From positions 1 to 64,000 of the IMG/VR virus record IMGVR_UViG_3300028423_001110: 64,000 nucleotides of DNA; one strand, given 5' to 3'. The position numbers were made by a program, and so were the translations under genes. The stretch's first letter is position 1. Each line of letters opens with the position of its first letter. The notes beneath the pieces are model-generated. The model did not search any database, had not been told where the DNA came from, and saw nothing but the letters and a program-made list of their open reading frames with translations. Positions 13,901 through 63,036 of this stretch are shown one piece after another. This stretch comes from a virus.

Positions 13901-14458
13901 AGTAGTGATAACTTATTCATTAGTTTTGGCCAAGAATTAAATAAAATTAAAACAATTAGTGATGAAATAATTTATCATTCTGCCAAATATAAAATTTTAT
14001 TTGGAAATAAGGCAACCTCAGATTTGCAAGCAACTTTTAAAATAGTCAAAAGTAAAGACATTGTTATCAACGATAACGACTTAAAGTCAAGAGTGATAAG
14101 CACTATTAACAGATTTTTTGCTCTTGAAAACTGGGATTTTGGTGATAACTTTTATTTCTCTGAACTTGCAAGTTTTGTCATGGCCGAGCTTTCGCCGGAC
14201 ATAATTACATTTGTTATAGTTCCTGTGCAACCTGATCAAAGTTTTGGATCTCTTTATGAAATTAAAGCAGAATCAGATGAAATTTTTATTAGTGCTGCAA
14301 CTGTAGAAGATATCGATATTATAGATGAAATTACAGCAAATCGACTAAATGCCGATGGAAATGTAATAACATCTGCTAGATCTATTAATTCTGGTATACA
14401 AAGTGCAGACGATAATCCCCTAACAATAGGAGGCCCTTCTACTAATGGCTTACAATAA
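10997..14458 (+). CDS. gp6: Baseplate wedge subunit gp6
   Basis: gp6 makes the continuous ring that ties the baseplate wedges together. The N-terminus has the conserved segments TEDWKRIYQSFRNAEFQSYDF, YLALIDMIAYLGQNISFRID and NARENFLELAERRESVLRLA (residues about 13-105), diagnostic for gp6. The length of 1153 residues is much greater than the 660 of T4 gp6, which is usual in marine relatives. The extension includes a calcium-loop-like DSDDDGVVDDPE near residue 813. The C-terminal part with SRVISTINRFFALENWDFGDNF resembles the gp6 dimerisation end. The stop overlaps the start of the next gene by 14 bases. Confidence 0.85.
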   Translation: MSSTDRQNRLLVTEDWKRIYQSFRNAEFQSYDFDNLRRTMINYLRENYPEDFNDYIESSEYLALIDMIAYLGQNISFRIDLNARENFLELAERRESVLRLARLLSYNPKRNQASNGLLKITAVSTTEEVSDSNNLNLRNRTIIWNDPANSNWNEQFDRVINAALSVNAKIGNPVKQENINGVTTQQYKLNSASRQVPVYGFTKNVDGRSVNFEVVSTGITNDSIVEEAPLPNRRFGFLYRNDGQGPSSTNTGYFSHFRQGVLDFGNFSVTNPSSNQVVAIDQRNINNSDVWLYSVNENGVEQKLWTKVDSVEGNNIIYNSIEKNQRDIYSVLTRIEDRISLIFADGTFGNLPQGSFRVYYRSSVNSRLFITPSDMRGIVVRIPYISRTGNAETLAISYSLEYTVVNGSTTETSANIKSRAPSTYYTQNRMVTGEDYQVAPLSISQEIVKAKAVNRTSSGISRYFDLIDATGKYSSTNLFGTDGALFKDFLDVKQSLNFENLTDIEGEIVNTVQPILKDRRLNNFYLDQFPLVSVRDLNNSWQQKTADTNQSTGNFIDLNGDDVRLGNFTESNMKFVKLNSLLKFEAPDGFHFLNGELIQGEPDFRGGSLYKWSKVVSIVNDGTSVQENEFGSVILNDVIPTGAKIVDIRTPLPNALVQNVESQAINEIFNLRTFGLRYDQNIGEWQIVSQNNLNIIDDFSTGKTGDTTGQQLDSSWLLLFETDGEKYTITYRSLRYIFESDREIRFYFDSTEKIFNNKSGKTVKDKVTVLGINTQPDTTEPFNKDFDWEVTKEFRNENGYVDSKKIEISFFDSDDDGVVDDPEIFDQVVNETQNIQDKLVFLRKEESQDGLIDYVFVSPEEINVEILQSKNSGVITSNYSDGQLFYFIEQDIFENLNRNTGNFTINTSFRAKIGRSGIKFHYIHNADENARIDPSASNIIDIYLLTRQYDTQFRLFLDDAIIDKPLPASSDNLFISFGQELNKIKTISDEIIYHSAKYKILFGNKATSDLQATFKIVKSKDIVINDNDLKSRVISTINRFFALENWDFGDNFYFSELASFVMAELSPDIITFVIVPVQPDQSFGSLYEIKAESDEIFISAATVEDIDIIDEITANRLNADGNVITSARSINSGIQSADDNPLTIGGPSTNGLQ

Positions 14459-26400: not shown

Positions 26401-29400
26401 ATCTAGGTAATTCGCTAATTAGAACTATTAAAAGTACGGTCAAATTTGATAGAGTTTCGGGTGACTTTTATTACACCGACCTAGAAACTTCAGAAAATTT
26501 TATAGGATCAGGAAATCGAAGATTATTTGAACTAGAATGGCCGTTAGATACTAGAAAAAATCAGATATCTGTTTTTGTTAATAATCAACTTGTGTTAACA
26601 GGTTCGTACACATTTTCTAATCAACTAGATAAAACCAAAGGTTATGACCGATATAAAGGTCAAATCTTTTTCGACGAACCTCCCGCACGCAATTCAGAAG
26701 TTCGTATAATTTACAACAAAAATATTTCATTACTCGATGCACAAGATAGAATTAACTTTTTTTATAATCTAGGAAACACAGAGTTCGACAAGCCTCTTGG
26801 CCAATTAATAGATGGTGTAGATTATGGAGGAGTAGAAGTAACAAGCTTTGATTTCGACCAAGTCACCGGATGGGACACACAGCCTTGGGCATCTGCTCCT
26901 TGGGACATTTTTGATAATACGTTTGAAGATGAAATATTTTACAAAAAAGTAGTTGTTTTAGAATTAGAAAATTCTGTAACTTTACAGCAGAATACTATTA
27001 TTAGTCAAGATAGCACGGGTGCTACAGGCAGAGTAATATCTACAGTAGAAAACAGCACTGAAGTTAAATTATCATGTAATATAGGAGAGATATTTAATAC
27101 TATTGACGAGATTAGATTTGATGATAGTACAGTAGCTGACAGTAGTATAAGCGTACCTATAAATGTAACTACAGAACCCTTTGAGCTTGCAAAGCCTTTA
27201 GAAGACGGAGTGGAATATAATCTTTATAAAATTACACGAAATAAAGTCGGGTCGGTATTGCGTAATATTAGATTAGATGATCCTAATTATGACGGAAGCA
27301 CTATACTAGACAACGATGCAATAATAGAACCGATTATCGGAGATGGAGAAAGAACAACGCTAGATGCAGATGAAATTGGCATAGATCTTTCCTTAAATGA
27401 AGATGAAACTAGTGCGTCGATTATTCTTAGAAAATCTACAAGCGACGGTTCCATATCACTAGACGAAGATTCTTACGACACAGATTTGAGTGGAGGAGAT
27501 TTATCTTATTCTAGTGCCACGGGTATTTTGGCCGAAGATATAAATTTCGACGGCGACGGATTTGTAACTACTACTACATCTAAAGGTCCGGAAGAAGTAG
27601 TTCCGGGTCAAATTATTGACACACTAGACATTACAGTCTATGAGAATCCGATTGAAGGATCTAGCAATATTGTTTCAAGAAATTATATCGGAAACGGAGT
27701 TAAAACCAATTTCGACATTGGAACTTACCCTATTAGTCAAAAAAATGTTTTTGTTAAATTAGATAATATTATACAAACACAAGATAATTATACAATTAAC
27801 TACACAAATAAAGAAATTGTGTTTACAACTCCGCCTGCAACCAATTCTAGAATTAATATTATTGTTTTACAAGAAAGTTCTACAGAAATACTAGAAGTAA
27901 AACAATTTAAAACTAACAAACTTACTAGCAACTTTGAATTGGATCAAAAATATAAGACAGAGCTAGATGCTTTTGTAACAGTTAATGGTATCGAAGAGTC
28001 CTTTACGATATCTAACGAATCGCTAGAAAAAACAATTATAACAACAGCTACACCGGTTAATTCAAATAGAATTGTAACTGTTATATTAACTAATAAAGGC
28101 GAATCTATAAGAAATTACAGTATTGTCGAAGTTAATGAATTTGAAGCTGACGGTAGCACTATAGATTTTACATTAGATAACAATATATTTGTACAGCAGC
28201 CTGCACAAGCATTTAGTTTAGTAAAAGTTAATAACACTATTTTAAGTCCTGGTTATAGCCAAAGATTTTTTGTTAACAACGAGAATAGATACCAGTTAGA
28301 TCTTACTCAAGTTCCTGTAGGATCAGTAAATGGATACGAAATAGAAGTTTACTTAAATGGACGATTATTAGAACAATCGTTAGAATGGAATTTTGAAGGT
28401 GCAGGCGGATTTGATTCGTCTATTGACGATAGCCAGCCCGGAAGTGTTCTTTTCTTAAAACCTGGTACTGCTGAAATTGGTGACGAACTGAAGGTACATA
28501 TTATTTCAGGAGGCGAATATCGATTTGGTTTCTTTGACCAAGACAATAGGTTTAATCCGCAAAGAGGAGAAGACTCAACACTTCCGGTACTTCACTTAGA
28601 CCAAGCTTTTCAGCCTGGAGATAATATAACTGTTTATACATTTAGTAATCATAATTCGCAAGGCATAGAAAGGCAAGTGCTTGAAGTGTTAGAAAAAACA
28701 CAAACAAAAATTAACACTCCGGAATATTTTGAATTCCAAAGATTAACAAAAGGTAAAATTAAATTAAGAAAACAGGCTTTTAGTGTTGATTGGGTTTGGC
28801 TAATTCAAAACGGAACTTTATTATCACCTAGTGTTGATTATAATCTTACAATAGATAAAAAATACATACAAATGATAGAGCCTCCTAAAGAAGGCGATGT
28901 ACTTGATATTATTCATTTTTCGGCCAATCCAACTAATCCTTCGTTTGGCTGGAGACAATTTAAAGATATGCTCAATAGGGTACATTATAAAAAACTAAGT
29001 TCTAGTTTTACACTTGCAACTGATTTACACTATTACGACAAAGTTATTGTTGTAGAAAATGCAGATAGCTTACCAGACCCTAGAAAAAATTCAAGACAAC
29101 CGGGTGTTATCTTTTTAGATAAAGAAAGAATTGAATATTTTATAAAAGACGGAAACGAGCTAAAGCAGTTAAGAAGAGGAACACTGGGCACAGGAGTAAA
29201 ACAGGTTTATTCCGCAGGAACGCAATTTGTAGAACAAGGTAATGTACACAATATTCCATATAAAGATGATACACAGACAGTACAGTTTGTCGGCGACGGC
29301 ACATCAAATACGTTCGAGTTACCGTTCGAAGTTCCTAGTGTTGACTATATAGAAGTGTTTGTAGCAGGAAAGAGGCTTTGTAAATTTGAACAGTCTATTT

Positions 29401-29612
29401 TCGATAAAAATTTAGCGCAAGATTCGCCCGAAGGCGATATCTTACAAGACTCGGAATTTGAAATCGAATTTAATACCTTAAAATTAACCAAGGCTCCTGA
29501 AGATAATGTAAGTATAACAGTTATAAGAAAATCTCTAGACCTTTGGACAGACTTTAATACTCCGTTGGCGTTGTCTAATACGGAAGTAGCTAAATTTCTA
29601 AGGCGAACCTAG
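14445..29612 (+). CDS. Giant virion structural protein (5055 residues), gp7-position
   Basis: One uninterrupted 15-kb frame directly after gp6, where T4 has gp7, the wedge initiator. The N-terminus (RTEVNNKFLSSTMDQMIQPG, then YYAWNPHVDWDKLVNFREYYW) is conserved in marine myovirus structural proteins. Embedded modules: four carbohydrate-binding-like units of the form GDxVxYxxxxYxA (near residues 228, 1750, 2235, 2864); FG-GAP/beta-propeller-like blades with FGASVAISQNGDYLAIGSP (2145-2225) and relatives at 2940-3140; two GxGYxxPP modules (near 3550 and 3920); and a C-terminal part with LKQLRRGTLGTG and FELPFEVPSVDYIEVFVAG. It probably combines a baseplate-wedge role with receptor or glycan binding. 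The gp7 link is positional only. No frameshift or signal peptide is seen. Confidence 0.7.
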   Translation: MAYNNDQQEYPLPDGSDDRRRSSQHLPRYFRTEVNNKFLSSTMDQMIQPGVVENLNGYIGRKEAKAFKSDDFYLGDISKQRDDYQLEPASIIQDNLGNITFYKDYNDYRNQLKNLENSNLNDSIINQQEYYAWNPHVDWDKLVNFREYYWLPNGPDPIPITGNRTNIATTYTVNNVDNLDNRGFVFSPDGLTQNPELTLYRGITYRFEIDSPNLPISIRTNRIVAPNWRPGTYYLEGESVQFNGQIFTAEVPHRAVSPLSDLTNSTIDELFELDREKWNLDNSFNLVKEISKQNVENGTIELTLGPETPDFLYYLSNEDINAGGLIRVYDIDQASFLNIEQEILGKKTYTTTNGFSLSNGMKVYFQGSTFPEKFQEGNYYVEGVGEFISLITEENLTLTTAFVEDEFVEFDSEGFDTTPFSRSIGFPREKDYLTINRSSQDGNLWSKYNRWFHREIIETAARINQTGLELDQNQRAIRPIIEFEPNIRLFNFGTIAKQPVDLVDNFTTDVFSTVEGSQGYNIDGVNLQNGMRVLFTADTDQRVRSKIYRVNFINFQNNRQIALTETDDSEPLTNEVVLCGQGTTFGGRNLFFNGVEWKLAQEKRSVNQAPLFEVYNCSGDSLADPEIYEATIFNGTEIFSYRVNNNGIVDSELGFPLSYRNIENVGDIVFEFDLLKDAATYCPEGSQVLQEPAGLGVLHQYKNRTEFDAVNGWKIADNFSDQRVIRQFVAVQDDVFFPIDMYDESGLLTDLELNITVNNKFQIQGSDYQIVNNTRNTAFVQFFNGLNENDIVLIKAKSKAPKNNNGLYEIPSNLEKNPLNENLGDLTLGEINDHARSIVEEIENFSGEFPGISNLRDQQNISKFGKRIIKHSAPLNLALFHLVDKDANLVKALRFAKNEYAKFKRNFLQVAFDLGFNGDVKKHVDLILKEVNRYKNNSDPFYFSDMLAYRGEKVAQFEIESDQQKFFSLIEPFSLNEVNDKAVYVYLNRKQLLFAVDYTFNSEGFLVLDCEIKRGDVLEICEYESTNGSFIPPTPTKLGLYPLSTPEKLIDDTYLETQEIIQGHDGSKILAFGDFRDDLLLELEYRIFNNIKVTYDKELFNINEFVPSIFSNTSLTQEQIENTMLNEFVEWTELIDEEYSENRFYNRQNPFTYNYTGSSNYLNQPVSGYWRAIYKNAFDTDRPHSHPWEMLGFTSKPAWWEDQYGPAPYTKDNLILWEDLEEGIIRESGNVPIAIDRYKRPGLTSALPVDNEGNLVAPLTSGYIQDYNPNNFSKIFKFGDQGPVETAWRRSSEYPFALLLSLFINQPNRIMAVCFDRIRQQRSIAGEIIYNEPNQHIQLSKLVFPNSINDNEKIFSSGLVNYMRDYLSSSVSANYNEYKNKLRSINNKIGFKLGGFTSKDKFNVILDSRTPTNQGNVFIPEENYKIFLNQSSPVENIFYSGVIIEKQPEGFVIKGYNKQRPFFIFNRPLDSRSNPSVNVGGISEVPTQWEQNIFVTRGIAIQFEGSFYRVSVSHNTGTVFDETKFVKIPKLPITGGRDAIFKRKFNTQETRVPYGTLLPTIQDVVDFLLGYQNYLESKGFIFDYYNNDTGFVANWETSAKEFMFWTTQNWSAGTVLALSPVAERLKFRSEFSVVDDIYDTFYGYSLLKVDGNKFSPEFVSLTREEPNFFEIRPKATADGIFAVRLSLVQKEHVFVIDNKTSFNDIIYDQIPGYRQERVKVLGYRTANWDGSFNTPGFIFDNAVVTEWQPWKDYAIGDTVKYKELYYAAKNRIPGSPVFNSEEWTLLTERPTPQLLPNWEYKTNQFADFYDLDSDNFDEEQQKFAQHLIGYQNRDYLANIINDDVSQYKFYQGFIQDKGTSNALLKLFDVLGNANKESLEFYEEWAIKAGQYGASQGFKEVQYKLDETQFNASPQPIELTNSQIAKNDLVYRIPSYEVFLKNEGYDHKPFPEKKIENYFLKTSGYVNPEDINFKVDQYADILNINFQDLNFSDIVWIGNENNTWNIYTVVRTDITIELIETGTNGYRLYLDTTNFNFEIGEIIGVYNQSSIEGLYQIDDIKNNYLLISVENPIDLPGEKFNGKIYKFVSTRFENEASINAQTKNIENGIQTVWVDNIDNDWKVLQRNKVFSQNGIISQEESELGTNFATSFDVNDRNTVLVVGEPDRQDGQVCVYTRPSPTSTFSLVETLELPNNIADSFPRFGASVAISQNGDYLAIGSPNASNVKTAFRDDFIESNDYAAGEIVRYQDNLWQALTDINGSISNVIFGSFASVLQSRIDLNLIDEDDKEIPILLTANYPFQNIEVANQSHILVRAPVDMYDGSAIGDKVVLKWNTLSYAYQNNNELTPVEPFNNEIQGLDSELITREHTIAEKVDIILHIQNATTVPTVGQTVNSLNAFGTVSYAYNEGSEVTLYIADQNGNFGLVGSLITELGEFVGEYNTAAPINEIRDIENYWGGFWKIDLDFSYTIEDKTRDEGLGLVYTNLITEFSQQDTDSDYYNILDYSTNISSSLDTRYSEIISLPNNESNLDEEDLYLIRAPKEVSDELSSGDQITLFYNNIPSFDSQNFIDTNNIGLSPEELNRTHNVLDLWDGYIVINATEVINDVPVIPKVGLIVQDVTNGGTAEIVFVENVRNIRWILYVKEVQGRWALGSEFGEPRQIEFLSDGSGDSIYDPALGQQLLGIILSRSLGLPEEGIGKLLVFDKKDQIPFSNEEAGSILDAEYWFYTEKEVAGRARPAEFPSEASNNWQQVFNIPAGAGGTSSGLQNEGLFSIYKRTGTSQWSIIDHFIVPQRHNNSKLGYDLEFAEINDIIKLFVRAKGENVFDSSETDYGRLFVIKNGIENGYNYNWEIGRDKQYKGEFTNTRKYFENDIVFVEGQLYQAKTNIDPESFDFNDWELLDRARDYLGFLPNDTSLVFESDIDNIIDLENLQEFAFEFSVSKNGEVLVIALQYNNEPNRVVIYRNLNGLYIKTQEIFAETSEQNFGATLDINEEGNMLAIGSPTEDIETMNDGAVFIYKQINKDFEIDQIVFSPIQDKNEQFGYEVSLSNDIVAITSKNGDSQIDTTFDSGETSFDNSFTKFVDFNENTGVVHLYEKVGNKFVYGETVDFEDSSVRYFGRNIKIKNNQLYVGLPDLQYSGLKEGILINFYKKPGASLWNVLRESKSTVDVNKIKKIFLYNTVTNKLINYLDYIDPLQGKIAGIAEQEIDFKLYYDPAVYTVGSNVNIDKTNFWGEDQVGKIWWDLTKAKFIYPYQNSTTFSANNWNNIFSDFNEIEVYEWVESDIPPSRWDELSGTASGISQSISGNTKYGDNAFVQKRTYDRTSKTFGEKFYYWVKNKITVPNTENRNLSAQDISKLIQDPAGQGYRFVSLISPTEFALYNCNSLIQNDDIAVSFQVYTIDDQRINVHDQYQIITEGLETSRPKKDIEQKWFDSLIGYDEQRRLVPALELSEKEKYGILNRPRQSWFINRVEALKQAIDRVNRVLENTLLVNDKDLSNLEQEQEPPSFVTNLYDVEVESKLDLQFIGTARLRQAKLNPIFENGQLIDVQILDSGRGYIVPPTVEIRGTGSGAEVKLSINNQGEVVNTEIVERGRNYNQNSLLNVRRFSVLVRNDETLGGRWSLYERDYVASSWFRTNSQGYNVKRYWEYKDWYAAGVNQFTNIDWTVSEIYELSNIDDEIRDIIKVDNIGSGGWILLQKIDNQPNADFTVNYSTIGQQNGTIQFKSSLYDIEENLAGFDVTAFDNLNFDSLPSIETRIILETIRDNIFIDELSIEYNKLFFSSLRYVFSEQNYVDWAFKTSFIKARHNVGELEQRITFRNDNLQNFEDYFNEVKPYKSNVREYLSAYDKLDNSRTLNTDFDLSPIYSNFENRIRPIDVKVSNNSIAVTDPAINLYPNKNWLDNVGFSLEKIEIADPGFGYTTRPIVFISGGGGTGAEATASLGRNGIIKSITVTNPGQGYISTPEISINGSLADGGRPAAASAYLGNSLIRTIKSTVKFDRVSGDFYYTDLETSENFIGSGNRRLFELEWPLDTRKNQISVFVNNQLVLTGSYTFSNQLDKTKGYDRYKGQIFFDEPPARNSEVRIIYNKNISLLDAQDRINFFYNLGNTEFDKPLGQLIDGVDYGGVEVTSFDFDQVTGWDTQPWASAPWDIFDNTFEDEIFYKKVVVLELENSVTLQQNTIISQDSTGATGRVISTVENSTEVKLSCNIGEIFNTIDEIRFDDSTVADSSISVPINVTTEPFELAKPLEDGVEYNLYKITRNKVGSVLRNIRLDDPNYDGSTILDNDAIIEPIIGDGERTTLDADEIGIDLSLNEDETSASIILRKSTSDGSISLDEDSYDTDLSGGDLSYSSATGILAEDINFDGDGFVTTTTSKGPEEVVPGQIIDTLDITVYENPIEGSSNIVSRNYIGNGVKTNFDIGTYPISQKNVFVKLDNIIQTQDNYTINYTNKEIVFTTPPATNSRINIIVLQESSTEILEVKQFKTNKLTSNFELDQKYKTELDAFVTVNGIEESFTISNESLEKTIITTATPVNSNRIVTVILTNKGESIRNYSIVEVNEFEADGSTIDFTLDNNIFVQQPAQAFSLVKVNNTILSPGYSQRFFVNNENRYQLDLTQVPVGSVNGYEIEVYLNGRLLEQSLEWNFEGAGGFDSSIDDSQPGSVLFLKPGTAEIGDELKVHIISGGEYRFGFFDQDNRFNPQRGEDSTLPVLHLDQAFQPGDNITVYTFSNHNSQGIERQVLEVLEKTQTKINTPEYFEFQRLTKGKIKLRKQAFSVDWVWLIQNGTLLSPSVDYNLTIDKKYIQMIEPPKEGDVLDIIHFSANPTNPSFGWRQFKDMLNRVHYKKLSSSFTLATDLHYYDKVIVVENADSLPDPRKNSRQPGVIFLDKERIEYFIKDGNELKQLRRGTLGTGVKQVYSAGTQFVEQGNVHNIPYKDDTQTVQFVGDGTSNTFELPFEVPSVDYIEVFVAGKRLCKFEQSIFDKNLAQDSPEGDILQDSEFEIEFNTLKLTKAPEDNVSITVIRKSLDLWTDFNTPLALSNTEVAKFLRRT

Positions 29613-39412: not shown

Positions 39413-40307
39413 TACGATAAAAATAGTCGAACAAGATATAATATTTTTATCATACGACGAGCCAAATGCTGAAAAAAATTTTGCAGACCTTTGCCAAAAA
39501 ATTCCTTGGGCAAAAAGAGTTCATGGAGTAAAAGGATCAGACGCTGCACATAAAGCCTGTGCAGATTTATCTGAAACAGAGAATTTTGTTACAGTCGACG
39601 GCGATAATGTAATTGATCCAGATTTTCTTAACTTAAAAATTGACGTAGATGAACTTGGGTTAACAAAAGAACATGTATTTTCTTGGTGCGGAAAGATACA
39701 CGTGAATGGGTTAATGTACGGCAACGGCGGCCTTAAATTATGGAACAAAGATTTTGTAACAAACATGAAAACCCATGAAAATTCAGATAAAAATGACACA
39801 CCGAGTTTAGTTGAATTTTGTTTTGATAACAGATACTATCAATTTAATGAAAATTATTCTACTTCATTTACAAACGAGTCTCCTTTTCAAGCTTGGAGAG
39901 CGGGCTTTAGAGAAGGGGTAAAAATGAGCCTCGATCAAGGGAAAAAAGTAAGTTATATTAACTCAATTTGGTGGCAGAATTACGAACGTCTTCTTATTTG
40001 GTCTTCGATAGGTGCAGACGTAAAAAATGGCTTATGGAGCATTTATGGCGCTAGAGAAGGTTGTTATCTCACAAATTGCACAGACTGGGATTACACACAA
40101 GTACGAGATTTTGAATATTTAACAGAAAAATGGAACGAAAATTACCCAAAAATTTCTGAATCAGAGCTAAGAGATAAAATCGAAAGCGTGGGAGAAAAGC
40201 TTTCTAAAGAACTAAATTTAAATATCGAAACACTTACAGAAAAAGGTAGTAAATTTTTTAAAAAAGTTTATCATAATACACCTAGAATAATAAAGGCAGC
40301 AAAATGA
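39405..40307 (+). CDS. Putative GT-A-like transferase with VDGD motif
   Basis: I start at the ATG at 39405 (MNNTIKIVEQ), preceded by AAAAGGA; an upstream in-frame ATG at 39375 lies inside the previous gene. The 300-residue protein reads IIFLSYDEPNAEKNF, then AKRVHGVKGSDAAHKAC, then FVTVDGDNVID, a nucleotide-sugar-binding order with the acidic VDGD near residue 67 replacing the classic DxD. YGNGGLKLW and SPFQAWRAGFREGVK follow. The same domain forms the C-terminal 226 residues of the protein at 49975-51858. This looks like a small transferase family common in marine phages; the reaction is not known. Confidence 0.55.
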   Translation: MNNTIKIVEQDIIFLSYDEPNAEKNFADLCQKIPWAKRVHGVKGSDAAHKACADLSETENFVTVDGDNVIDPDFLNLKIDVDELGLTKEHVFSWCGKIHVNGLMYGNGGLKLWNKDFVTNMKTHENSDKNDTPSLVEFCFDNRYYQFNENYSTSFTNESPFQAWRAGFREGVKMSLDQGKKVSYINSIWWQNYERLLIWSSIGADVKNGLWSIYGAREGCYLTNCTDWDYTQVRDFEYLTEKWNENYPKISESELRDKIESVGEKLSKELNLNIETLTEKGSKFFKKVYHNTPRIIKAAK

Positions 40308-41704
40308 ATCAAGAATTAGAAAGAATTAAACAAGTTATGCCGATTACCGATTCTGAGATTTCTCCGACATTTTGTATGGCAAAATGGCATCATACTACAA
40401 TATATTTGCAAACAGGAGAAACTCATAGTTGTTATCATCCTTCTCCTCATGAAATACCATTAGAAGAAATTAAAGAAAATCCGTCGGCGCTGCATAATAC
40501 TAAAGAGAAAAAAATCGAAAGGCAGAAAATGCTCGACGGAAAGCAGCCGTCTGGTTGTAATTACTGTTGGAAGATTGAAGCAATGGGAAAAGATTATGTT
40601 TCAGATCGACATATTAAAACTGCTTCGATTTATACGCCAGAAAGATTAGACGAAATCAAGAATGGCGGAGCTGAATATAATATTAATCCAGAATATATTG
40701 AAATATCGTTTTCAAATGAGTGCAATTTTAAATGCGGGTATTGCCATCCTAAGGCCAGTTCTCGTTATTGGAAAGAAATCGATAGCAAAGGACCATATAA
40801 AGAATCAACAGAACACAGATTAGATATTGATTGGTTTAAAGTTTATCACAGAGAAGAAGAAAATCCCTATGTAAAAGCATGGTGGGAATGGTGGCCTGAA
40901 GTTTCAAAAACTCTTAATATTCTTCGTATTACAGGCGGCGAACCCCTTATGCATAAAAGCACTTGGGACTTATTTGATAGATTAGAAGAAGATCCCAAGC
41001 CTCATATTCAGATTGAAATAAATTCTAATCTTGGTGTAAAGACAAAACTTGTTGAAAAATTAGTAGAAAGAATAAATCATTTAAAGAATACTGGAAAAAT
41101 TAAGAGTTTTAAACTTTATACATCAATTGATACTTGGACTAACAGAGCCGAGTATGCAAGGCACGGGCTTGATTTAAATTTATGGGAAAAAAATCTAGAT
41201 TATTATCTTACAAAAACTAACATGCCTGTTACATTTATGATTACCTTTAATATTTTCTGTGTTACAAGTTTTAACACATTATTAGAGAAAATTTTAGAAT
41301 GGAGAAAAAAATATAATACGGATAAAAATCAAGGTCAGTGGCAGCTAGTAAGATTTGATACTCCTCACCTAAAAGAACCTACAATATTTGATATGAATAT
41401 TTTACCAAAAGAAGAATTCATGCCATATATGCATTCGCATCTAGATTTTATCCAAAAAAATGTTGATAATTCCGATAGAACAAAATTTACTGATCTTGAA
41501 TATGAAAAATTTAAAAGAGTTGTAGATTACATGGATTCAACACACTACAGTGAAAATAAACTTACTATCGCTAGAAAGAACTTTAATGCATGGTTTTCAG
41601 AGCACGATAAAAGAAGGAATACTTGTCTTACTGACACGTTTCCTGAATTAAAACCATTTTGGAATCTCTGTGCAGATCTTAATCAAAAAGAGCGTGTGGA
41701 ATAG
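40304..41704 (+). CDS. Radical SAM protein with N-terminal twitch-type cysteine cluster
   Basis: Radical SAM enzymes use a 4Fe-4S cluster and SAM to start radical chemistry. The canonical CxxxCxxC is CNFKCGYC at residues 140-147, followed by the SAM-binding GGEP in RITGGEPLMHK. Unusually, cysteines that suggest an additional iron-sulfur site come first: FCMAKWHH (C24), HSCYHP (C43), GCNYCWK (C85, C88). This arrangement is known from twitch-domain radical SAM proteins in marine phages and sugar clusters. At 466 residues it is full length. ATGA overlap with the previous gene implies coupling. The 3' end overlaps the convergent SGNH gene by 26 bases. The substrate is unknown; sugar or peptide modification is likely from context. 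Confidence 0.82.
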   Translation: MNQELERIKQVMPITDSEISPTFCMAKWHHTTIYLQTGETHSCYHPSPHEIPLEEIKENPSALHNTKEKKIERQKMLDGKQPSGCNYCWKIEAMGKDYVSDRHIKTASIYTPERLDEIKNGGAEYNINPEYIEISFSNECNFKCGYCHPKASSRYWKEIDSKGPYKESTEHRLDIDWFKVYHREEENPYVKAWWEWWPEVSKTLNILRITGGEPLMHKSTWDLFDRLEEDPKPHIQIEINSNLGVKTKLVEKLVERINHLKNTGKIKSFKLYTSIDTWTNRAEYARHGLDLNLWEKNLDYYLTKTNMPVTFMITFNIFCVTSFNTLLEKILEWRKKYNTDKNQGQWQLVRFDTPHLKEPTIFDMNILPKEEFMPYMHSHLDFIQKNVDNSDRTKFTDLEYEKFKRVVDYMDSTHYSENKLTIARKNFNAWFSEHDKRRNTCLTDTFPELKPFWNLCADLNQKERVE

Positions 41705-51174: not shown

Positions 51175-51858
51175 TTCGATATTGTCTTTATTTCGTATAA
51201 CGAACCTAATGCAGATTACAACTACAAACAGTTACTTAAAATTGCACCAAAAGCAAAAAGAATACAAAATGTAAAAGGAATACACAAGGCACATATCGAA
51301 GCAGCAAAACTTGTTAAAACTGAAATGTTCTGGATCGTAGACGGAGATGCTTTGATGCAAGAAAATTTTAAATTTGAATATCAAGTTCCTAGATGGGATC
51401 AAGATGTTGTGCATGTATGGAGATCAAAAAACCCGGTAAATAATCTAAGTTACGGATATGGTGGAGTTAAATTACTTCCGACTAAATTAACATTAAATAT
51501 GTCGCAGGACAATCTTGATATGACAACAAGTATTAGCAATAAGTTTAAAACGGTAGACGAAATATCTAATAAAACAATGTTTAATACTAGTAGTTTTAGT
51601 GCATGGAAGTCTGGATTTAGAGAATGTGTAAAGCTAGCAAGCGGAATTATAAAAAAATCCTGTGAAGAAGAAACACAGGAAAGATTAGATACTTGGTGTA
51701 ATGTAGGAGTTAATATAAAATTCGGCATCGATACAATTAGAGGCGCGGTTGACGGAAGAGAATACGGAATTAAAAACAAAGATGATAAAATTGCTTTAGA
51801 GAAAATAAATGACTTCAACTGGTTATACAGAAGATTTTCAAAAAATCCCATTCGATAA
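49975..51858 (+). CDS. Multi-repeat protein: four degenerate copies and one intact VDGD domain
   Basis: A 627-residue protein. Its last 226 residues (from FDIVFISYNEPNADYN) are closely like the 39405-40307 protein, with MFWIVDGDALMQ, YGYGGVKLLP and FSAWKSGFRECVK. Ahead of it lie four degenerate units of 94-116 residues, each with F(F)W, then an acidic or altered motif in place of VDGD (FSDL, PDD, PST, PED), then FDYQAAHWEKYPHVF-like and YYDGLMLFPKD-like blocks, and ending in KKxEVDxxAS-P. The copies lack most of the putative catalytic part. They may bind substrate, act as a ruler, or mediate assembly. The next radical SAM gene overlaps its end by 50 bases. Confidence 0.55.
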   Translation: MYDLFFISEEKTQEWFNLKSLYPTAKHSKTILDASKKSFTSHFWCVFSDLDLDKTFDFSFIPDNWSKDYIHVFRNKNYFDGVCLIPKNNLPSEKEANFRFFTNKKEVDINASTPKKYEIFYINTYEDYLNAAENCLTTFFWAVPDDISINFNFDYQAAHWEKYPHVFKNNSYYDGLMLFPKDKLVTEKEFNYRFFIKKKEVDLMLSTPKPYDKFFIDSYEEYLNANKTSKSNFFWVIPSTVELHKDFDFNYQAAYWEKFPHVFLNGSYFDGVTLHNKDNIVSKKEFEFKFFVKRKEIDIVASFPKKYDYFDVSNYNDYLKATEEAKTNFFWFVPEDVSTSFNFEYQAAEWEKYTHVFLNNQFYDGICLFNKDEKVSKKEFDHRFFMKKKEVDINASDPRRFDIVFISYNEPNADYNYKQLLKIAPKAKRIQNVKGIHKAHIEAAKLVKTEMFWIVDGDALMQENFKFEYQVPRWDQDVVHVWRSKNPVNNLSYGYGGVKLLPTKLTLNMSQDNLDMTTSISNKFKTVDEISNKTMFNTSSFSAWKSGFRECVKLASGIIKKSCEEETQERLDTWCNVGVNIKFGIDTIRGAVDGREYGIKNKDDKIALEKINDFNWLYRRFSKNPIR

Positions 51859-52819
51859 AATTTGTAAAGTAGGTCAAAAAACACTATTTGATAAAAAACT
51901 TTTTACAGTATCTTGGATATTAGCAAGATTTTGTAATTATAATTGTTCCTACTGCTGGCCGTATGCTCGATCGTCTAAACCGGATCATCGGTCTCTTAGC
52001 ACATATTTTTGGGTAATTGACGAAATTAAAAGACAGGCAAATACAAACGGATTTGACGAATTTCATTTTTCTTTCTCTGGTGGAGAACCGACTGCCTATA
52101 ACAAGTTTTTAGACATTGTAAAATATTATTCAAATGATCACAATTCAAATTATCAAAGCATACATATGACCACAAATTTAAGCCCAGGTAGTAAATGGTG
52201 GGTTAAATGGTTAAACAGTACAAAGACCTTACAACGCAGAAGTATCACAGCAAGTTACCATGCAGAATTTGCACGAGAGCAAGAATTTGGTGATAAATGT
52301 CTTCAATTAATTAATGACGGCGTTTTTGTTACAATTAATCAAGTAATGGTTCCGGAACTTTTTGATCAATACTATGATAGATGTATGCGGTTTTCAAACA
52401 GAGGTATAAACGTTACGCTAAAACCTCAAAGTGATCCGACTGCAAGTTTTGTTGTAAATGGATATACAGAAGAACAAATTAATTTGTTACAAACCGGCTT
52501 CCCGCAACATTACTACGGAGATATTGTGTATCAAATGTTGTTAGAAGACGATCGAGGGCACAGTTATAATTTTGATCAAGCTGAAAGATTAAACGCATTT
52601 GGTTTTAATAAGTTTAAAGGGTGGCAATGCAATTCTGGCTATCAAAGTTGCATTATTCGAGAACCCGGTGGTGAGGTAAAAAGATCGTATAGTTGTCACG
52701 ATTTGCCTTTAGGAACAATAGACAAAGGATTTGATTTATTCACAGAGAGTAAACCTTGTATAACTCCTACTTGCGTTAGTTCAGCAGATTCAAAAATACC
52801 TAAATTTAAGAAACCTTAA
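51809..52819 (+). CDS. Radical SAM protein
   Basis: A 336-residue enzyme with the cluster motif CNYNCSYC (C42, C46, C49) shortly after FTVSWILARF, and the SAM-binding block FSFSGGEPTAYNKF near residue 92. LHMTTNLS-like (IHMTTNLSPG) and SITASYHAEFA follow the radical SAM barrel order. Cysteines near the C-terminus (WQCNSGYQSCIIREPGGE, SCHDLPLG, CITPTCVSS) suggest an additional iron-sulfur binding region of the SPASM/twitch kind. The ATG at 51809 lies inside the previous gene, with 50 bases of overlap. The end overlaps the convergent radical SAM gene by 14 bases. Substrate unknown. Confidence 0.82.
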   Translation: MTSTGYTEDFQKIPFDKICKVGQKTLFDKKLFTVSWILARFCNYNCSYCWPYARSSKPDHRSLSTYFWVIDEIKRQANTNGFDEFHFSFSGGEPTAYNKFLDIVKYYSNDHNSNYQSIHMTTNLSPGSKWWVKWLNSTKTLQRRSITASYHAEFAREQEFGDKCLQLINDGVFVTINQVMVPELFDQYYDRCMRFSNRGINVTLKPQSDPTASFVVNGYTEEQINLLQTGFPQHYYGDIVYQMLLEDDRGHSYNFDQAERLNAFGFNKFKGWQCNSGYQSCIIREPGGEVKRSYSCHDLPLGTIDKGFDLFTESKPCITPTCVSSADSKIPKFKKP

Positions 52820-54650
52820 CAGAATCAATAATATTAAAGTTTTTTAAGTAATTGTTTACTTCGTTTTGACTCAAGTCGGATAAACCATTTTTTTCTAAAT
52901 TTATTTTTGCTACAGGAATCATTCCTAACGCAAGTTTGTCCATATCTAGATTTAAATTTTGCTTTTCATACCACAATAAAAAATTTTCTAATCTTGAATT
53001 ATAATAATCGTCGGGTATGTTAGGACCAAACCAAGCCATAAAATCTGCACTATAATGTTTAAGAGGAACAATTTCATCTTGATTATAATTCGTAACTTTA
53101 AATGCATCTAAAAGCGGCATGCCGACTTCGCAATAGTTTATATAAATTGTTCCATATTCCCATTGAAAAGTAAATAATTTATAGTCAGACGTTTGTAACA
53201 GATATTTTGGTCTGTTCTGAAATGTACCTACAATTCTTGGACACGGATATTTCTTTTCTGTTTCGTTCCACTCACTAAATCTTTTAGTTTCTTTTAATTT
53301 ATAATTCAGAGATATTTCATTTGCCCATTTTTGTGCAATACTTGATTGATTAATATCAAATACTAATGTTGTTTTTGAATTGGTGTAGTTGCTCGATGAC
53401 AACGTAAGATAAAAATTATTATAAAATAAACTATTACATCGAATTTCTGAAAATTTAGTAAAGAAATTTTCGTTTCTAATTTGGTCTATATACTTTGTTT
53501 GCCGCAAAAATTCATTTTTTTCTTTTTCCCATGTATTTTTTTGTTTTGTAAAATGCATACCGTCTTGTAGTATACTACAGATATGGGGATAACTTTTTTG
53601 ATATTTTTTGATAAATTTTTCACATTTTTTGCCTGCTTCTTTTTTAATTTCAATAGGAAGACTTTGTGGATTGTAATAGGGAGGATTAATTGCTGGTGTG
53701 AGCGTGTGCGCAGAACTTTCAGGTGTGATAATTTTTTTATCTATCATAAATTCGTAAAAATCGGTGATGCTGGGATAGTTAAAAAAACTTAAAACAGTAT
53801 TAATTTCAAATGTTATATGATCCAAAATGCTTACAGTTTGAAGATTTTCTTCAATTTTTTTCCAATTTGTTCCGTGCCGAATCCATTCGGCCTTCTCTCC
53901 AAAATGATCTATACTACAACTAATATTTACTGATTCGAATTTTTTCCAAAGAGATACAATATCTCTGCCCTTATATTTAAGTGTACTTAAATTTGTATTA
54001 TATTTTAGTTTGACGTTTGTTCTTTCTGCTTGAATAAGATTATCCAGTATAATATAGTGCTCTTCGGTTAATAGAGGTTCGCCTCCAGCAAAATAAATCA
54101 TATCGATGTATTCGATCTGTTCTATTACTTCTTTTAGTAATGCCCCGGTGGCATCTGCATGTATGACAGTAGGTGTTTTAAAATTTTGATGTTTTGCTTG
54201 TTCTTCTGCCCACTTTGAACTAAATTCTGATCCGCAAGTTCTACATTTAAAATTACATATATTACTAAACCTAATATCAACATACCGCATTTTAAAGTCA
54301 TTAACTTTTCCGTCTTCTTCTGTAGTATGTACGATTTCGTCAAAAAACCTTCCAAAATTCTCATTTGCAAAGCTTCGAAAACTCGAATTTCCAATTTCTT
54401 CTTGCTTATAGCAAAACTCGCAAATTTTACTTTTTTTGTTAGAAAGCATGTTTTTGCGTAATAATTTCATATCTTTAACATTAAATGCTTCTTCTAGACT
54501 AACATCGTTGGTATTTGCAAAAGGAGTAGTATAATTATTAGAACAGCAAGGGTACACATCTCCTTTCGGAGTTACATTTAAATGTACCCAAGGAAACATA
54601 CAAAATGTCTTGCTTTCATTTAGCAAAACCTTCTTATTTATTTTTGTCAT
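52806..54650 (-). CDS. Large radical SAM protein with N-terminal twitch-type cluster
   Basis: A 614-residue protein. The N-terminus gives additional cluster cysteines: FCMFPWVHLNVTPKGDVYPCC (residues 17-36) and ICEFCYKQEE (77-80). The SAM-cluster motif CNFKCRTC follows at 132-139 and IYFAGGEPLL near 195, then ISCSIDHFG. The same N-terminal architecture is in the 40304 gene. The C-terminal 250 residues (from about 360) have no recognised domain; SADFMAWFGPNIP is notable. Its promoter region is divergent to the methyltransferase gene, with a late-like box. Transcribed alone on the minus strand between plus-strand modules. Substrate unknown. Confidence 0.82.
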   Translation of the reverse strand: MTKINKKVLLNESKTFCMFPWVHLNVTPKGDVYPCCSNNYTTPFANTNDVSLEEAFNVKDMKLLRKNMLSNKKSKICEFCYKQEEIGNSSFRSFANENFGRFFDEIVHTTEEDGKVNDFKMRYVDIRFSNICNFKCRTCGSEFSSKWAEEQAKHQNFKTPTVIHADATGALLKEVIEQIEYIDMIYFAGGEPLLTEEHYIILDNLIQAERTNVKLKYNTNLSTLKYKGRDIVSLWKKFESVNISCSIDHFGEKAEWIRHGTNWKKIEENLQTVSILDHITFEINTVLSFFNYPSITDFYEFMIDKKIITPESSAHTLTPAINPPYYNPQSLPIEIKKEAGKKCEKFIKKYQKSYPHICSILQDGMHFTKQKNTWEKEKNEFLRQTKYIDQIRNENFFTKFSEIRCNSLFYNNFYLTLSSSNYTNSKTTLVFDINQSSIAQKWANEISLNYKLKETKRFSEWNETEKKYPCPRIVGTFQNRPKYLLQTSDYKLFTFQWEYGTIYINYCEVGMPLLDAFKVTNYNQDEIVPLKHYSADFMAWFGPNIPDDYYNSRLENFLLWYEKQNLNLDMDKLALGMIPVAKINLEKNGLSDLSQNEVNNYLKNFNIIDSVKVS

Positions 54651-54747: not shown

Positions 54748-55353
54748 ATGTTTGTAAATATCGAAGATATCCTTTTTTGGATGGATGCTATTAGAAATTC
54801 TGATGATAGATATAGAACTCTAGAAAGTTTTTGGAAAGGGCAAATATATTCTAAAATTTGGTTAATAGACAATTTAAAACCTTTTATTGTTAATGATAAA
54901 AACACAATAATAATACATGCTGGATGGAATGGTGTCTTATCTAGTTTACTCTTTAACAGCAATATTTCAATTCGCAAAATTATCTCGGTTGACAAAGATC
55001 AAAATTGTAAAAACATTGCTCTTACAGTAAATAAAAGACAAGAAATGGAAGGTAAGTTTTTTGCAGTTACAGAAGATATGACCAAATTCAATTATGACGA
55101 ATCTCCAGATATTGTAATTAATACAAGTTGCGAACATATAACAGACAAAGAACTGCAAAAATGGTATTCCCAAATTCCTCAAAACACTCTTGTTGTTTTA
55201 CAAAGTAATAACTATTTTAATTTAGACGAACATATTAATTGTGTCACGAGTGCAACCGATCTTGCTAATAAAATAGATATTGATTCTATTATGGAAGGAA
55301 GTTATTCGACACCCTTATATGATAGATTTATGGCAATTGGATATAAAAAATAA
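54748..55353 (+). CDS. Class I SAM-dependent methyltransferase-like protein
   Basis: A 201-residue protein of Rossmann type. Motif I is degenerate but placed correctly (TIIIHAGWNGVLSSLLF near residue 60), followed by an acidic loop KIISVDKDQNC and the post-motif PDIVINTSCEHI near 130. LESFWKGQIYSKIWLI at the start and VLQSNNYF later recall a protein that I remember as widespread in marine T4-like phages. A catalytic target cannot be read; DNA, RNA or small molecule all remain possible. It shares its last base with the first base of the next gene (TAATG). Confidence 0.55.
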   Translation: MFVNIEDILFWMDAIRNSDDRYRTLESFWKGQIYSKIWLIDNLKPFIVNDKNTIIIHAGWNGVLSSLLFNSNISIRKIISVDKDQNCKNIALTVNKRQEMEGKFFAVTEDMTKFNYDESPDIVINTSCEHITDKELQKWYSQIPQNTLVVLQSNNYFNLDEHINCVTSATDLANKIDIDSIMEGSYSTPLYDRFMAIGYKK

Positions 55354-56441
55354 TGTTTTCATTTTATGAATTAGAAGATCTTCATCTTGAAATTACTAGT
55401 TTATGTCAAGCAAGTTGTCCTATGTGTAGTAGAAACTACCATGGCGGAATAAAAAATCCTCTTTTAAAATTATCGAGTTGGTCTCTTGCAGATTTTAAAA
55501 AAATTTTAACAAAAGAAGTACTTATCCAAATTAAAGGATTTTATTTCTGCGGAAATTTTGGAGATCCTATTATAAATGATGATCTTTTAGAGATGATTAA
55601 ATATTCAGTTTCAATTAATCCTAATTTATACATACGAATTCATACAAATGCAAGTGCTAGAAGTGAAGAATGGTGGAAGACATTAGCAAAAACATTACCT
55701 TTAAAGCATAATGTAGTATTTGCGTTAGACGGTTTAGAAGATACACACAGTATATACAGAGTCGGAACTGATTTTACAAAAATAATTAATAATGCTACGG
55801 CATTTATAAAAAATGGCGGCACAGCTGAGTGGTGTTTTATAAAATTTCGACATAATGAACATCAAGTTGATCTTGCAAAAAAAACTGCCGCTTCGCTAGG
55901 ATTTTTAAAATTTACAGAAAAAAATTCTGCAAGGTTTATTTCTAGTGATGAATTTGATGTATTAGATAAAAATGGAAATGTAAAGTATCAATTATATAAA
56001 CCGAGAAATTCTAAAAAATCTGAAATTAGTTATGATTTAATCAAAGATTATAAGCAAATATTACAAAATGCATCAATCCAATGTGCTGTTAAAAAAACTA
56101 AAGAAATATATATAGATGCTCAGCGTAATGTAATGCCTTGCTGTTTTTTAGCATCAACGCCGTATAACTTTTCAGGAGACAAGGATATTGAATCTAACTT
56201 TAGAAAAGACACTAAACAACAATACGAAGAATTAAGAAAAGAACTTGGAGACATAAGTGCTTTAACACAAAGTATAAAAAGTATTATTTCTTCTGAAACG
56301 TGGCAAAAAGTATGGGACAAATATTGGAATAATGGAAAATTATATACATGTAGTAGAGTATGCGGTAAATTAGATCAAAAAATTTCACAACCTAGCGATC
56401 AGTTTGTAGATCAAATTTGGTTACGAAAAAATGTCATATAA
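55353..56441 (+). CDS. Radical SAM protein with SPASM-like C-terminal cysteines
   Basis: A 362-residue enzyme starting almost at once with LEITSLCQASCPMCSRNYHGG, giving CxxxCxxC at residues 18-25. KGFYFCGNFGDPII near residue 65 replaces the common GGEP as the SAM-site strand. IHTNASARSEEWW, VFALDGLEDTHSIYRVGTDF and the Cys-rich end (NVMPCCFLAS, CSRVCGKL) match marine-phage radical SAM proteins with a SPASM-like tail. These proteins often activate peptides or build modified residues, but no precursor peptide is recognised here. The next gene overlaps its end by 11 bases. Confidence 0.8.
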   Translation: MFSFYELEDLHLEITSLCQASCPMCSRNYHGGIKNPLLKLSSWSLADFKKILTKEVLIQIKGFYFCGNFGDPIINDDLLEMIKYSVSINPNLYIRIHTNASARSEEWWKTLAKTLPLKHNVVFALDGLEDTHSIYRVGTDFTKIINNATAFIKNGGTAEWCFIKFRHNEHQVDLAKKTAASLGFLKFTEKNSARFISSDEFDVLDKNGNVKYQLYKPRNSKKSEISYDLIKDYKQILQNASIQCAVKKTKEIYIDAQRNVMPCCFLASTPYNFSGDKDIESNFRKDTKQQYEELRKELGDISALTQSIKSIISSETWQKVWDKYWNNGKLYTCSRVCGKLDQKISQPSDQFVDQIWLRKNVI

Positions 56442-60089: not shown

Positions 60090-60377
60090 CTAATACTTTA
60101 GATATGGACACCCTAAAGTGAATAATGAAAGTTCTTTTGGGTCTTCAAATCCTATTTTAATTACTTTAATTTCTTTATTGTTTTTATCTAATTCGTAAAT
60201 CTGTCCCACATAAAATCGGCCTTTTAAATTTTTTTCAATCCATCTAACAATAGTTTGCTCAAGATTATACCTCCGCATTTCGATAGTAATATATTCAAAA
60301 TGCGGTGGTGGAACTTTTAGCTGTCTAATTCCGTAAAAGTTTAACGGATTAACCTTCTTAGATCTATTGCTAAGCAT
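60090..60377 (-). CDS. Small conserved phage protein, unknown function
   Basis: A 95-residue protein from the ATG at 60377 (MLSNRSKKVNPLNFYGIRQL), overlapping the stop of the VWA gene by 8 bases. A longer frame from 60530 would run against that gene and is rejected. PPPHFEYITIEMRRYN and IVRWIEKNLKGRFYVG stretches suggest a small mixed alpha/beta fold. Such a partner gene directly after the VWA gene is the usual order, which makes a role with it plausible, though untested. Confidence 0.55.
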   Translation of the reverse strand: MLSNRSKKVNPLNFYGIRQLKVPPPHFEYITIEMRRYNLEQTIVRWIEKNLKGRFYVGQIYELDKNNKEIKVIKIGFEDPKELSLFTLGCPYLKY

Positions 60378-61632
60378 CTTCGTAGTATGTAGTAACTCCG
60401 AACGGTGCTTCTGGTGCTCGACCGTATACTGAATGAATGAGGAATACAGTGTCACAGTAGTCGGAATCACCCCAGCTGTTCCACGGCATCCCATCCGTAA
60501 ACATAATGAACTTCTTGGGCTGGATATCATGCTCCTTCATGTAGTTCCAGTTGCAGTCAAAGTCGGTTCCTCCGCCGCCCTTGATATCATATTCTGTAAT
60601 ATCGCGACCGTCGTCTGCTGAAAACTCGTCTTCGTTATAGACTTCAGTGTCAAAACACCACAGTTTAATGCGATAGTCTTCGTACTGATCCATGATGCCT
60701 TTGATTTCTGAAAGAAACACACGAGCCTGTTCGTCACCGATCGATCCACTCATGTCCAGCGCAATGCAGATATCAATTGTTTCGTCAAAGTTCTGACCAG
60801 GAAGAACAGCACCCATGTGCCAGCCCTTGCGAGACGGGCGAGCAAAAGTAAAATCGTTCTTAATAGTGCTCTGAATCTGCTGCTGAAGAATCTCACGCCA
60901 GTTCATCTTAGGCTCAGTAAGATCCTTAATCATTCGCTCAATTTCGCCAGGCACATTACCAGCACCTGCACCTTGCGCAGCAGATATCATGTTTTCTTTG
61001 ATTTCATCTCGAATTTTTTCTAGTTCTTCGCGAGTGTATTTGGGACGACCTTTGCCGGCACCGTCCTTTTGTTTGTTTCCGGAACCGCTGCCTTCCTGTT
61101 CCTTCTCCCAGTCGACGTGCTCGTCGAGCATTTTGCCTAGCTCGTCAAGATCGATCTTGTCAGCCTGATCATACAGTTCGTCATAGATCTCTTCAGAAGT
61201 CCAGCCGTCGTATTTGTAGTCCTGGTAGATCTGAATGTCTGGCACATCGCCGATTTTGTCGCGTACGAGTGTGTTATTCACCTTGTAGTCACAGGCAATG
61301 TTGTACAACTGCGGATTGCGCTCTTCACGACGAATGATATGATCAAAAACACAATGCAGAATCTCGTGTGCAATAACAAACTCAATCTGCTTGGTAGTAA
61401 GCTTATTAAAAAACTGCGAGTTATAAAACAGATTGCGACCATCTGTGGCAGCAGTAGGGCACCAGCTATCACAAGGCTGAACACGCAGACGAGTTGCCAT
61501 GTTGCCAAACCAAGGATGACGAAGAAGTAGCCCAACACGAGCAGTAATTACTTTCTCTTTTACTTCATCCTGAAGAGCAGCAAGTGCTTCTTTGGAAAGT
61601 TCTTCGTGTTCAAGTAGAGTTTCGTCTGCCAC
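60370..61632 (-). CDS. VWA-like protein with metallopeptidase-type HEILH motif
   Basis: A 420-residue protein from GTG 61632, with TAGGAGA as ribosome site. It pairs two parts. First is a putative metallopeptidase-like domain (DUF2201-type) with FVIAHEILHCVFDHI, giving HExxH at residues 89-93. Second is a C-terminal von Willebrand A domain with the MIDAS start LDMSGSIGDEQ near residue 290, a GGGGTDF block near 355 and FIMFTDGMPW. A Lys/Gly/Glu-rich linker separates them. Such proteins work with MoxR-type AAA ATPases, here the next gene upstream. The stretch is richer in G+C than most of the window. A strong sigma70-like promoter lies directly upstream. Confidence 0.85.
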   Translation of the reverse strand: MADETLLEHEELSKEALAALQDEVKEKVITARVGLLLRHPWFGNMATRLRVQPCDSWCPTAATDGRNLFYNSQFFNKLTTKQIEFVIAHEILHCVFDHIIRREERNPQLYNIACDYKVNNTLVRDKIGDVPDIQIYQDYKYDGWTSEEIYDELYDQADKIDLDELGKMLDEHVDWEKEQEGSGSGNKQKDGAGKGRPKYTREELEKIRDEIKENMISAAQGAGAGNVPGEIERMIKDLTEPKMNWREILQQQIQSTIKNDFTFARPSRKGWHMGAVLPGQNFDETIDICIALDMSGSIGDEQARVFLSEIKGIMDQYEDYRIKLWCFDTEVYNEDEFSADDGRDITEYDIKGGGGTDFDCNWNYMKEHDIQPKKFIMFTDGMPWNSWGDSDYCDTVFLIHSVYGRAPEAPFGVTTYYEDA

Positions 61633-61661
61633 AGTGTTCTCCTAATTGCCAGTGTATGTAT

Positions 61662-61690
61662 ATAATACACAATTTTGAGGGATTAGTCAA
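61662..61690 (-). promoter_or_regulatory. Sigma70-like promoter for VWA gene
   Basis: TTGACT (61690-61685) and TATTAT (61667-61662) on the minus strand, spacer 17 bases. The -35 box is immediately next to the terminator tail of the MoxR gene. Confidence 0.75.
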
Positions 61691-61691
61691 G

Positions 61692-61714
61692 AAAAGGGGC
61701 GAACGAATCGCCCC
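61692..61714 (-). terminator. Rho-independent terminator after MoxR-type gene
   Basis: On the minus strand GGGGCGA, a five-base TTCGT loop, TCGCCCC, then TTTTCTT. A perfect 7-bp G+C-rich stem (61696-61714) followed by a T tract. It ends the transcript of the gene stopping at 61720. The T tract runs into TTGACT of the next promoter. Confidence 0.8.
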
Positions 61715-61719
61715 AATAA

Positions 61720-63036
61720 TTACGCCTTCTGAGCGGCTGTAATATACTTGCCATAGCGCTCGTGGAACTCGTCAAAGCACTCAATCGCGTCTGGATCAAT
61801 AGGCAGACTGTACTGCGTCAGTGCCAGCTTGATACCCATGACAACTAACTCTGTCTCGAAATTATCCATTGAAAAGCGCAGAAAGTTGTTAACCTTGTCG
61901 TCAAACTTCTTGTCGCCTGCATCGCTGGCCTCTTTAAGCTCATAGCAGAGAGAAACTGTAAGAGAATACATTGCGGAAATTTCTTTTGTGTTGAGCTCAG
62001 TTACCTTGCCTTCAAGAATGTCACCAGGATTAGGCATCTGCGATGCAACCTTGCGATGTGCCATAAACTTAACAGCTAGACCTTCTCCTACAGCACCTGA
62101 CACAAGATCAGTGGTAGTGCTTTCGTCTAGTGAGTCCTCAAGCAGTTCGCTTACAAACGACCACGAACGAGGCGTTGCAAACGAACGACTAGGCGACTTG
62201 GGATCGAAATCGTACAGATCCTTCTTGGAGAAAGTCAGATAACCTACAACATCCGTGTGAATGCTATTGTCAACAGCCCACTGGAACCAATCGTCGAAGC
62301 TCACAGTCATTTCAAGGTGAACAAAGCGATTAGCCAACGGCGCTGGCATGCGATAGGTTACACCCTTGTCAGCCTCTCGGTTACCAGCAGCTACAATGTA
62401 TACATTGTCAGGCAGAGTGTAAGTGCCAACCTTGCGATTGAGAATAAGCTGATAAGCAGCAGCCTGCACAGCCGGAGCAGCCGAATTCATTTCATCAAGA
62501 AACAGCACAATATTGTCATGCTGAGCGGCAAGCTCGTCGTCTGGAAGTTCAAGCGGCGGAGCCCAAACCATCTTGCCAATGTTGGAATCAAAGTAAGGAA
62601 TACCCTTGATGTCAGTTGGCTCCCAAAGCGAAAGACGAACATCAATATCGTTTTTGGCATCCTGTCTTGCTAGAGCCTTGGAAATTCCATACTTTTTGAT
62701 ATCTCCAGAGAACATATGAAGTTCTAGTGCTTTCTTATCGTCCGTTACAGATATACTGCGTTTGCCTAGATAGTAAGGACAGTCGATAAAATTGTCCAGC
62801 CATATGATAATTTGAGTAATCATTGTCATATCGGGCGCGTAAGGCACTTCGTAAAATGACACGTCTAGGTCTTCTGTCATCATTCTATAACCTTCGTCTG
62901 TAAGACGCATGCCCCCGATTTCTTTTAAACGAGGATTTTGCCACCATTCTGTAAGAGAAGATCGAATCGACAGACTATTTACAGATTGGTCTAACTGTTT
63001 AAGAAAGATTTTTGTATAAGTTTCTTTTTTGGTCAT
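61720..63036 (-). CDS. MoxR-type AAA protein lacking Walker A, fused to an N-terminal phage domain
   Basis: MoxR AAA+ ATPases work as chaperones with VWA proteins. From about residue 130 the 438-residue protein is a clear MoxR: IDVRLSLWEPTDIKGIPYF, Walker B IVLFLDEMN (176-184), NVYIVAAGNREADKGVTY, and the ANRFVHLEM Arg-finger region. The upstream P-loop GxxGxGKS is absent. Instead residues 1-120 (MTKKETYTKIFLKQLDQSVN to MFSGDIKKYGISKA) look like a different, stand-alone marine-phage protein. A junction near residue 120 (about 62676) coincides with a visible change from AT-rich to more G+C-rich sequence. An in-frame deletion between two adjacent genes explains it. Without Walker A, ATP hydrolysis is doubtful. 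A strong terminator follows. Confidence 0.8.
   Translation of the reverse strand: MTKKETYTKIFLKQLDQSVNSLSIRSSLTEWWQNPRLKEIGGMRLTDEGYRMMTEDLDVSFYEVPYAPDMTMITQIIIWLDNFIDCPYYLGKRSISVTDDKKALELHMFSGDIKKYGISKALARQDAKNDIDVRLSLWEPTDIKGIPYFDSNIGKMVWAPPLELPDDELAAQHDNIVLFLDEMNSAAPAVQAAAYQLILNRKVGTYTLPDNVYIVAAGNREADKGVTYRMPAPLANRFVHLEMTVSFDDWFQWAVDNSIHTDVVGYLTFSKKDLYDFDPKSPSRSFATPRSWSFVSELLEDSLDESTTTDLVSGAVGEGLAVKFMAHRKVASQMPNPGDILEGKVTELNTKEISAMYSLTVSLCYELKEASDAGDKKFDDKVNNFLRFSMDNFETELVVMGIKLALTQYSLPIDPDAIECFDEFHERYGKYITAAQKA

Follow-up and report, generated by a model that had tools for sequence, protein, structure and literature searches.

The window analysed here is a stretch of 64,000 nucleotides from the viral record IMGVR_UViG_3300028423_001110 and contains no N. 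Positions 61720..63036 on its (-) strand hold a fused ORF of 438 amino acids that runs as one open frame, unbroken in the 66,781-base record. Residues 1–130 correspond to a small phage protein, hereafter the N protein, and residues 131–438 to a chaperone-type enzyme, a MoxR AAA+ ATPase without its first 52 codons. The N gene (62647..63036, (-)), which is a separate gene in relatives, retains all 130 codons but not its stop codon. The MoxR part (61720..62646, (-)), assigned by its match to phrog_1297 and by alignment with relatives, extends from codon 53 to the stop and is missing the P-loop. A first-pass annotation of this DNA had reported an AAA protein without Walker A, and this is borne out by a motif search in which no [AG]....GK[ST] pattern was found anywhere in the 438-residue fused ORF. 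Its statement that Walker B and sensor 1 are kept likewise holds: the ORF carries LFLDEMN at residue 178 and AAGN at residue 216, both aligned with relatives, which we take to be Walker B and sensor 1, respectively. Further along, ANRF is present at residue 235 and TPR at residue 288. The N-terminal portion had been described as a domain of 120 residues resembling an independent phage protein; it is indeed a phage protein (phrog_15638), but its length is 130 residues.

Both halves were searched separately, as the annotation had proposed. In a PHROGs profile search, residues 118–432 of the fusion match phrog_1297 (ATPase family) with E values of 1.5e-84 to 2.7e-83. Scores against Pfam fall below the curated cut-offs for AAA_3 (17.8 versus 27 bits) and AAA (15 versus 21.2 bits); the intact MoxR of a close relative, L001 (IMGVR_UViG_3300026094_000662), passes them with 30.9 and 36.8 bits, respectively. 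The phrog_1297 match, together with 98–99% identity to intact copies, shows that the MoxR part belongs by descent to the phage MoxR family. When the MoxR alignment was compared with PDB sequences, midasin was the only match. The N part matches phrog_15638 weakly, over profile positions 32–119 of 125 (E 2.7e-4); the same profile is matched by 52 of the 57 scanned N-protein members, with a best E of 1.9e-8. Against phage records, the N part of the window yielded no match at E 1, and the L001 N protein yielded 24 matches, all weak, in a search extending to E 10, the best having E values of 0.007–0.009. Compared with PDB folds, the N-domain model gave 73 matches, of which the best has E 0.25 and none reaches E 0.001; the N alignment, searched against PDB sequences, gave one match (E 0.95).

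The gene that adjoins the fused ORF at 60370..61632 (-) encodes a full-length partner of 420 amino acids, in which Pfam identifies a metallopeptidase domain (DUF2201_N, E 1.2e-42) and a vWA-like domain (DUF2201, E 1.4e-12), and which matches positions 5–391 of 394 in phrog_1314. The spacer before this vWA gene (61633..61719, (-)), as read by eye, contains a GGGGCGA..TCGCCCC hairpin with a T run, followed by promoter-like TTGACT..TATTAT and AGGAG, and is nearly identical in L001. Elsewhere in the window, an ORF of 5055 amino acids occupies a single frame at 14445–29612 (+) in the structural gene region, and four radical SAM-type genes are found at 40304–41704, 51809–52819, 52806–54650 and 55353–56441. 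One of these four has a SPASM domain, and the one at 55353 is below the Pfam cut-off.

Scanning viral contigs for MoxR gave more than 599 candidates, of which the 80 best loci were used, and further scans with the N part and with the vWA protein gave 27 loci and the best 80 loci, respectively. In the pooled IMG/VR set, among the matches listed, MoxR is matched at 184 loci, of which 141 are distinct from one another at the seam, and both halves are present at 181. The N and MoxR genes are separate, with DNA between them, in 80/80 loci of the first scan (best 80 of more than 599), and not one of the 181 loci holding both halves carries a fused version, again among the matches listed. We therefore reject the view of the first-pass annotation that the N-terminal domain is foreign, because its gene is a regular neighbour of MoxR that normally lies directly upstream in relatives. 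The genes around the fusion are also those of the relatives, the two upstream genes being present at 80/80 loci and the vWA gene at 74/80 (best 80 of more than 599). The usual order at this conserved locus is the N gene, a promoter, the MoxR ATPase and the vWA-metallopeptidase. From the N stop to the MoxR start, the distance is 59 to 2722 nt in the best 80 of more than 599 loci. Spacer lengths in this set fall into classes of 59–157, 276–293 and 526–911 nt, along with 1886 and 2722 nt, and this grouping implies insertions at the N–MoxR interval in some phages.

A look for the P-loop in relatives, suggested with the original annotation, finds it in frame at 182 of the 184 MoxR loci (among the matches listed). 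Its versions in the best 80 of more than 599 loci are GPPGIGKS (76 loci), GAPGIGKS (2) and GGPGIGKS (2). The two exceptions, L092 and L112, are one contig (IMGVR_UViG_3300000576_000080), in which a frameshift follows the intact P-loop of MoxR, such that the frame of the P-loop differs from that of the later MoxR part. This is either a second broken copy in a close relative or a mis-sequenced one.

Alignment with the nine closest copies among the matches listed (L001, L002, L084, L085, L089, L090, L091, L092 and L095) reveals that 222 nt held by all nine are absent from the window. The alignment places the seam at 62646..62647 (-), rather than near 62676 as had been proposed. The missing segment consists of the N gene TGA, the spacer (63 nt in L001) and MoxR codons 1–52. 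Because 222 nt equal 74 codons, the N protein reading frame continues straight into the remaining MoxR. Relative to these nine copies, one of the two origins offered in the first-pass annotation, an in-frame fusion deletion, is thus what the alignment yields, and extra sequence between the halves, which had been named there as a sign against its reading, is present in the DNA of relatives. The joined ends share one base. Recombination between repeats was considered for this join; a 7-base match, ATGCCAA, occurs near both ends, but the alignment indicates that it is not the crossover.

The lost spacer carried a sigma70-like promoter and a ribosome-binding site, which in L001 are visible by eye as TTGACA and TATAAT, separated by 16 bases, and as AGAGG ahead of the MoxR ATG. 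A promoter-like pattern occurs in the N–MoxR interval at 63 of 80 loci (best 80 of more than 599), compared with 155 of 1600 random 280-nt stretches, a rough control given that interval lengths vary and the random stretches are all 280 nt.

GC content is 38.2% before the seam and 47.5% after it. The change in composition noted in the first-pass annotation is therefore real, but it does not mark a join. In relatives, mean GC is 35.1% for the N gene and 41.9% for MoxR, and the N gene is lower at 79 of 80 loci (best 80 of more than 599), where the step falls between separate genes. The step is an ordinary difference between two genes, and we rejected it as a signal of joining. A join of two unrelated genomes was also rejected because the genes on either side are those of the same relatives. 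Import of a lower-identity block (62647–64061), with the deletion at its edge, was considered as well and is unneeded; the block is also more variable between relatives. Just past the window, an AMP-binding (ANL-type) enzyme gene of 507 amino acids (E 1.2e-7) is located at about 64081–65604 (-) of record G000 (6082–7605 in L083). In the five relatives used for comparison (L001, L091, L085, L095 and L092), the sequences that flank this gene adjoin each other directly or almost directly, which indicates that the gene is an insertion in this phage.

The MoxR part of the window is 99.35% identical in protein and 95.5% identical in DNA to that of L091 (IMGVR_UViG_3300028383_000267), and 98.05% identical in protein to that of L001. 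With L002 as the outgroup, the window side has 2 amino-acid and 20 silent changes and the L001 side has 2 amino-acid and 31 silent changes, although these counts are approximate given recombination among these phages. No excess of amino-acid changes was found in the MoxR part relative to intact relatives. The MoxR part was under strict selection up to a very recent time, and the loss is either new or absent from the living phage. With no decay seen, nothing shows that the deletion allele has persisted.

Since Walker A is gone along with its surrounding strand and helix, ATP binding and hydrolysis are expected to be lost, and with them MoxR function in this copy. The N domain modelled alone with AlphaFold2 reaches a mean pLDDT of 84.5. 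The AlphaFold2 model of the fusion has an overall mean of 66.3 and a pTM of 0.37, with well-modelled C-terminal helices. Residues 111–330 are mostly poor (ten-residue means of 25 to 67), in a fusion modelled without an intact-MoxR control.

We consider it probable that the fused ORF is a real but defective deletion allele. Ends sharing one base would have been joined very recently, giving this allele in the phage population, and the vWA gene would keep its own promoter-like spacer while MoxR function is lost. Speaking against an accident, the first missing bases are precisely those of the N stop codon and the frame is maintained, although chance alone would keep the frame in one case out of three. 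A clearly less probable account, which we nevertheless regard as a serious one, is that the phage has two normal genes and that 222 nt were dropped by a chimeric molecule (from amplification or library preparation) or by an assembly error. The fusion is unique among the 181 loci with both halves (among the matches listed), the 20-mer across the seam was found in no other viral contig in a search that possibly left out records very near the window, the MoxR part bears no sign of relaxed selection, and the 66.8-kb contig ends about 4 kb beyond the seam, all of which favor such an artefact. However, with one shared base, no N and a seam 20-mer that occurs only once in the window, a join based on overlap would be unexpected, and the usual neighbor genes are present on both sides of the seam.

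The first-pass annotation had raised the prospect of a new chimeric regulator, for which we find no support. In a working chimera of this kind, the in-frame fusion would recently have replaced the ATPase in the phage population, and the N protein joined to a MoxR body without a P-loop would partner the vWA metallopeptidase either independently of ATP or in a dominant-negative way. In its favor, the frame and the whole N protein are kept, and the other motifs of MoxR and the partner gene are undamaged, but no relative shares the fusion (0/181, among the matches listed), the P-loop and the promoter-like sequence of MoxR are gone, and the central part of the AAA core is missing, with residues of about 111–330 predicted at low confidence in the uncontrolled model of the fusion. 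We thus judge a working chimera to be very unlikely. Even more improbable is that MoxR function comes from another copy at a different place in the phage, leaving this one free to decay. Such a copy could be missed in a record of 66.8 kb when relatives' contigs reach 175–185 kb, but the intact L001 MoxR matches only this locus in that record at E up to 10, and no decay is seen in the MoxR part. Most probably, the fused ORF is a copy that broke recently, or a chimeric molecule, rather than a new kind of regulator, and the striking ‘AAA protein without Walker A’ is a single-contig deletion between two normal neighbors.

By its gene content, the locus is the MoxR / vWA-metallopeptidase pair already known from jumbo phages. 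PMC7824862 describes, in group 2.2 jumbo phages, a MoxR ATPase adjoining a vWA protein whose N-terminal domain is a metallopeptidase, and proposes a role for the MoxR-vWA pair in virion assembly. The window has the same adjacency and a vWA partner with a metallopeptidase domain, but differs from that pair in that MoxR has lost both its start and its P-loop and is joined to the gene upstream. If the deletion allele is real, this phage would carry a natural loss-of-function version of a MoxR that every compared relative keeps, which would question the need for the pair in virion assembly. Klebsiella phage RaK2 has the same order, comprising the small gene ORF052, a gp24-like ATPase (32% to the window) and a gp25-like partner. 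The small RaK2 gene gives a weak match with the L001 N protein (E 0.7). RaK2 differs from the window in having three separate genes and an ATPase with GSPGIGKS. The best named MoxR matches are the ATPase EST35_0335 of Pseudomonas phage PA5oct and near-identical records (53% over residues 131–433), but this ATPase is encoded by a stand-alone gene and has GPPGVGKS. Finally, L091 and L001 share the MoxR part and its neighbors with the window, and differ from it by having the 222 nt and, with them, two separate genes.
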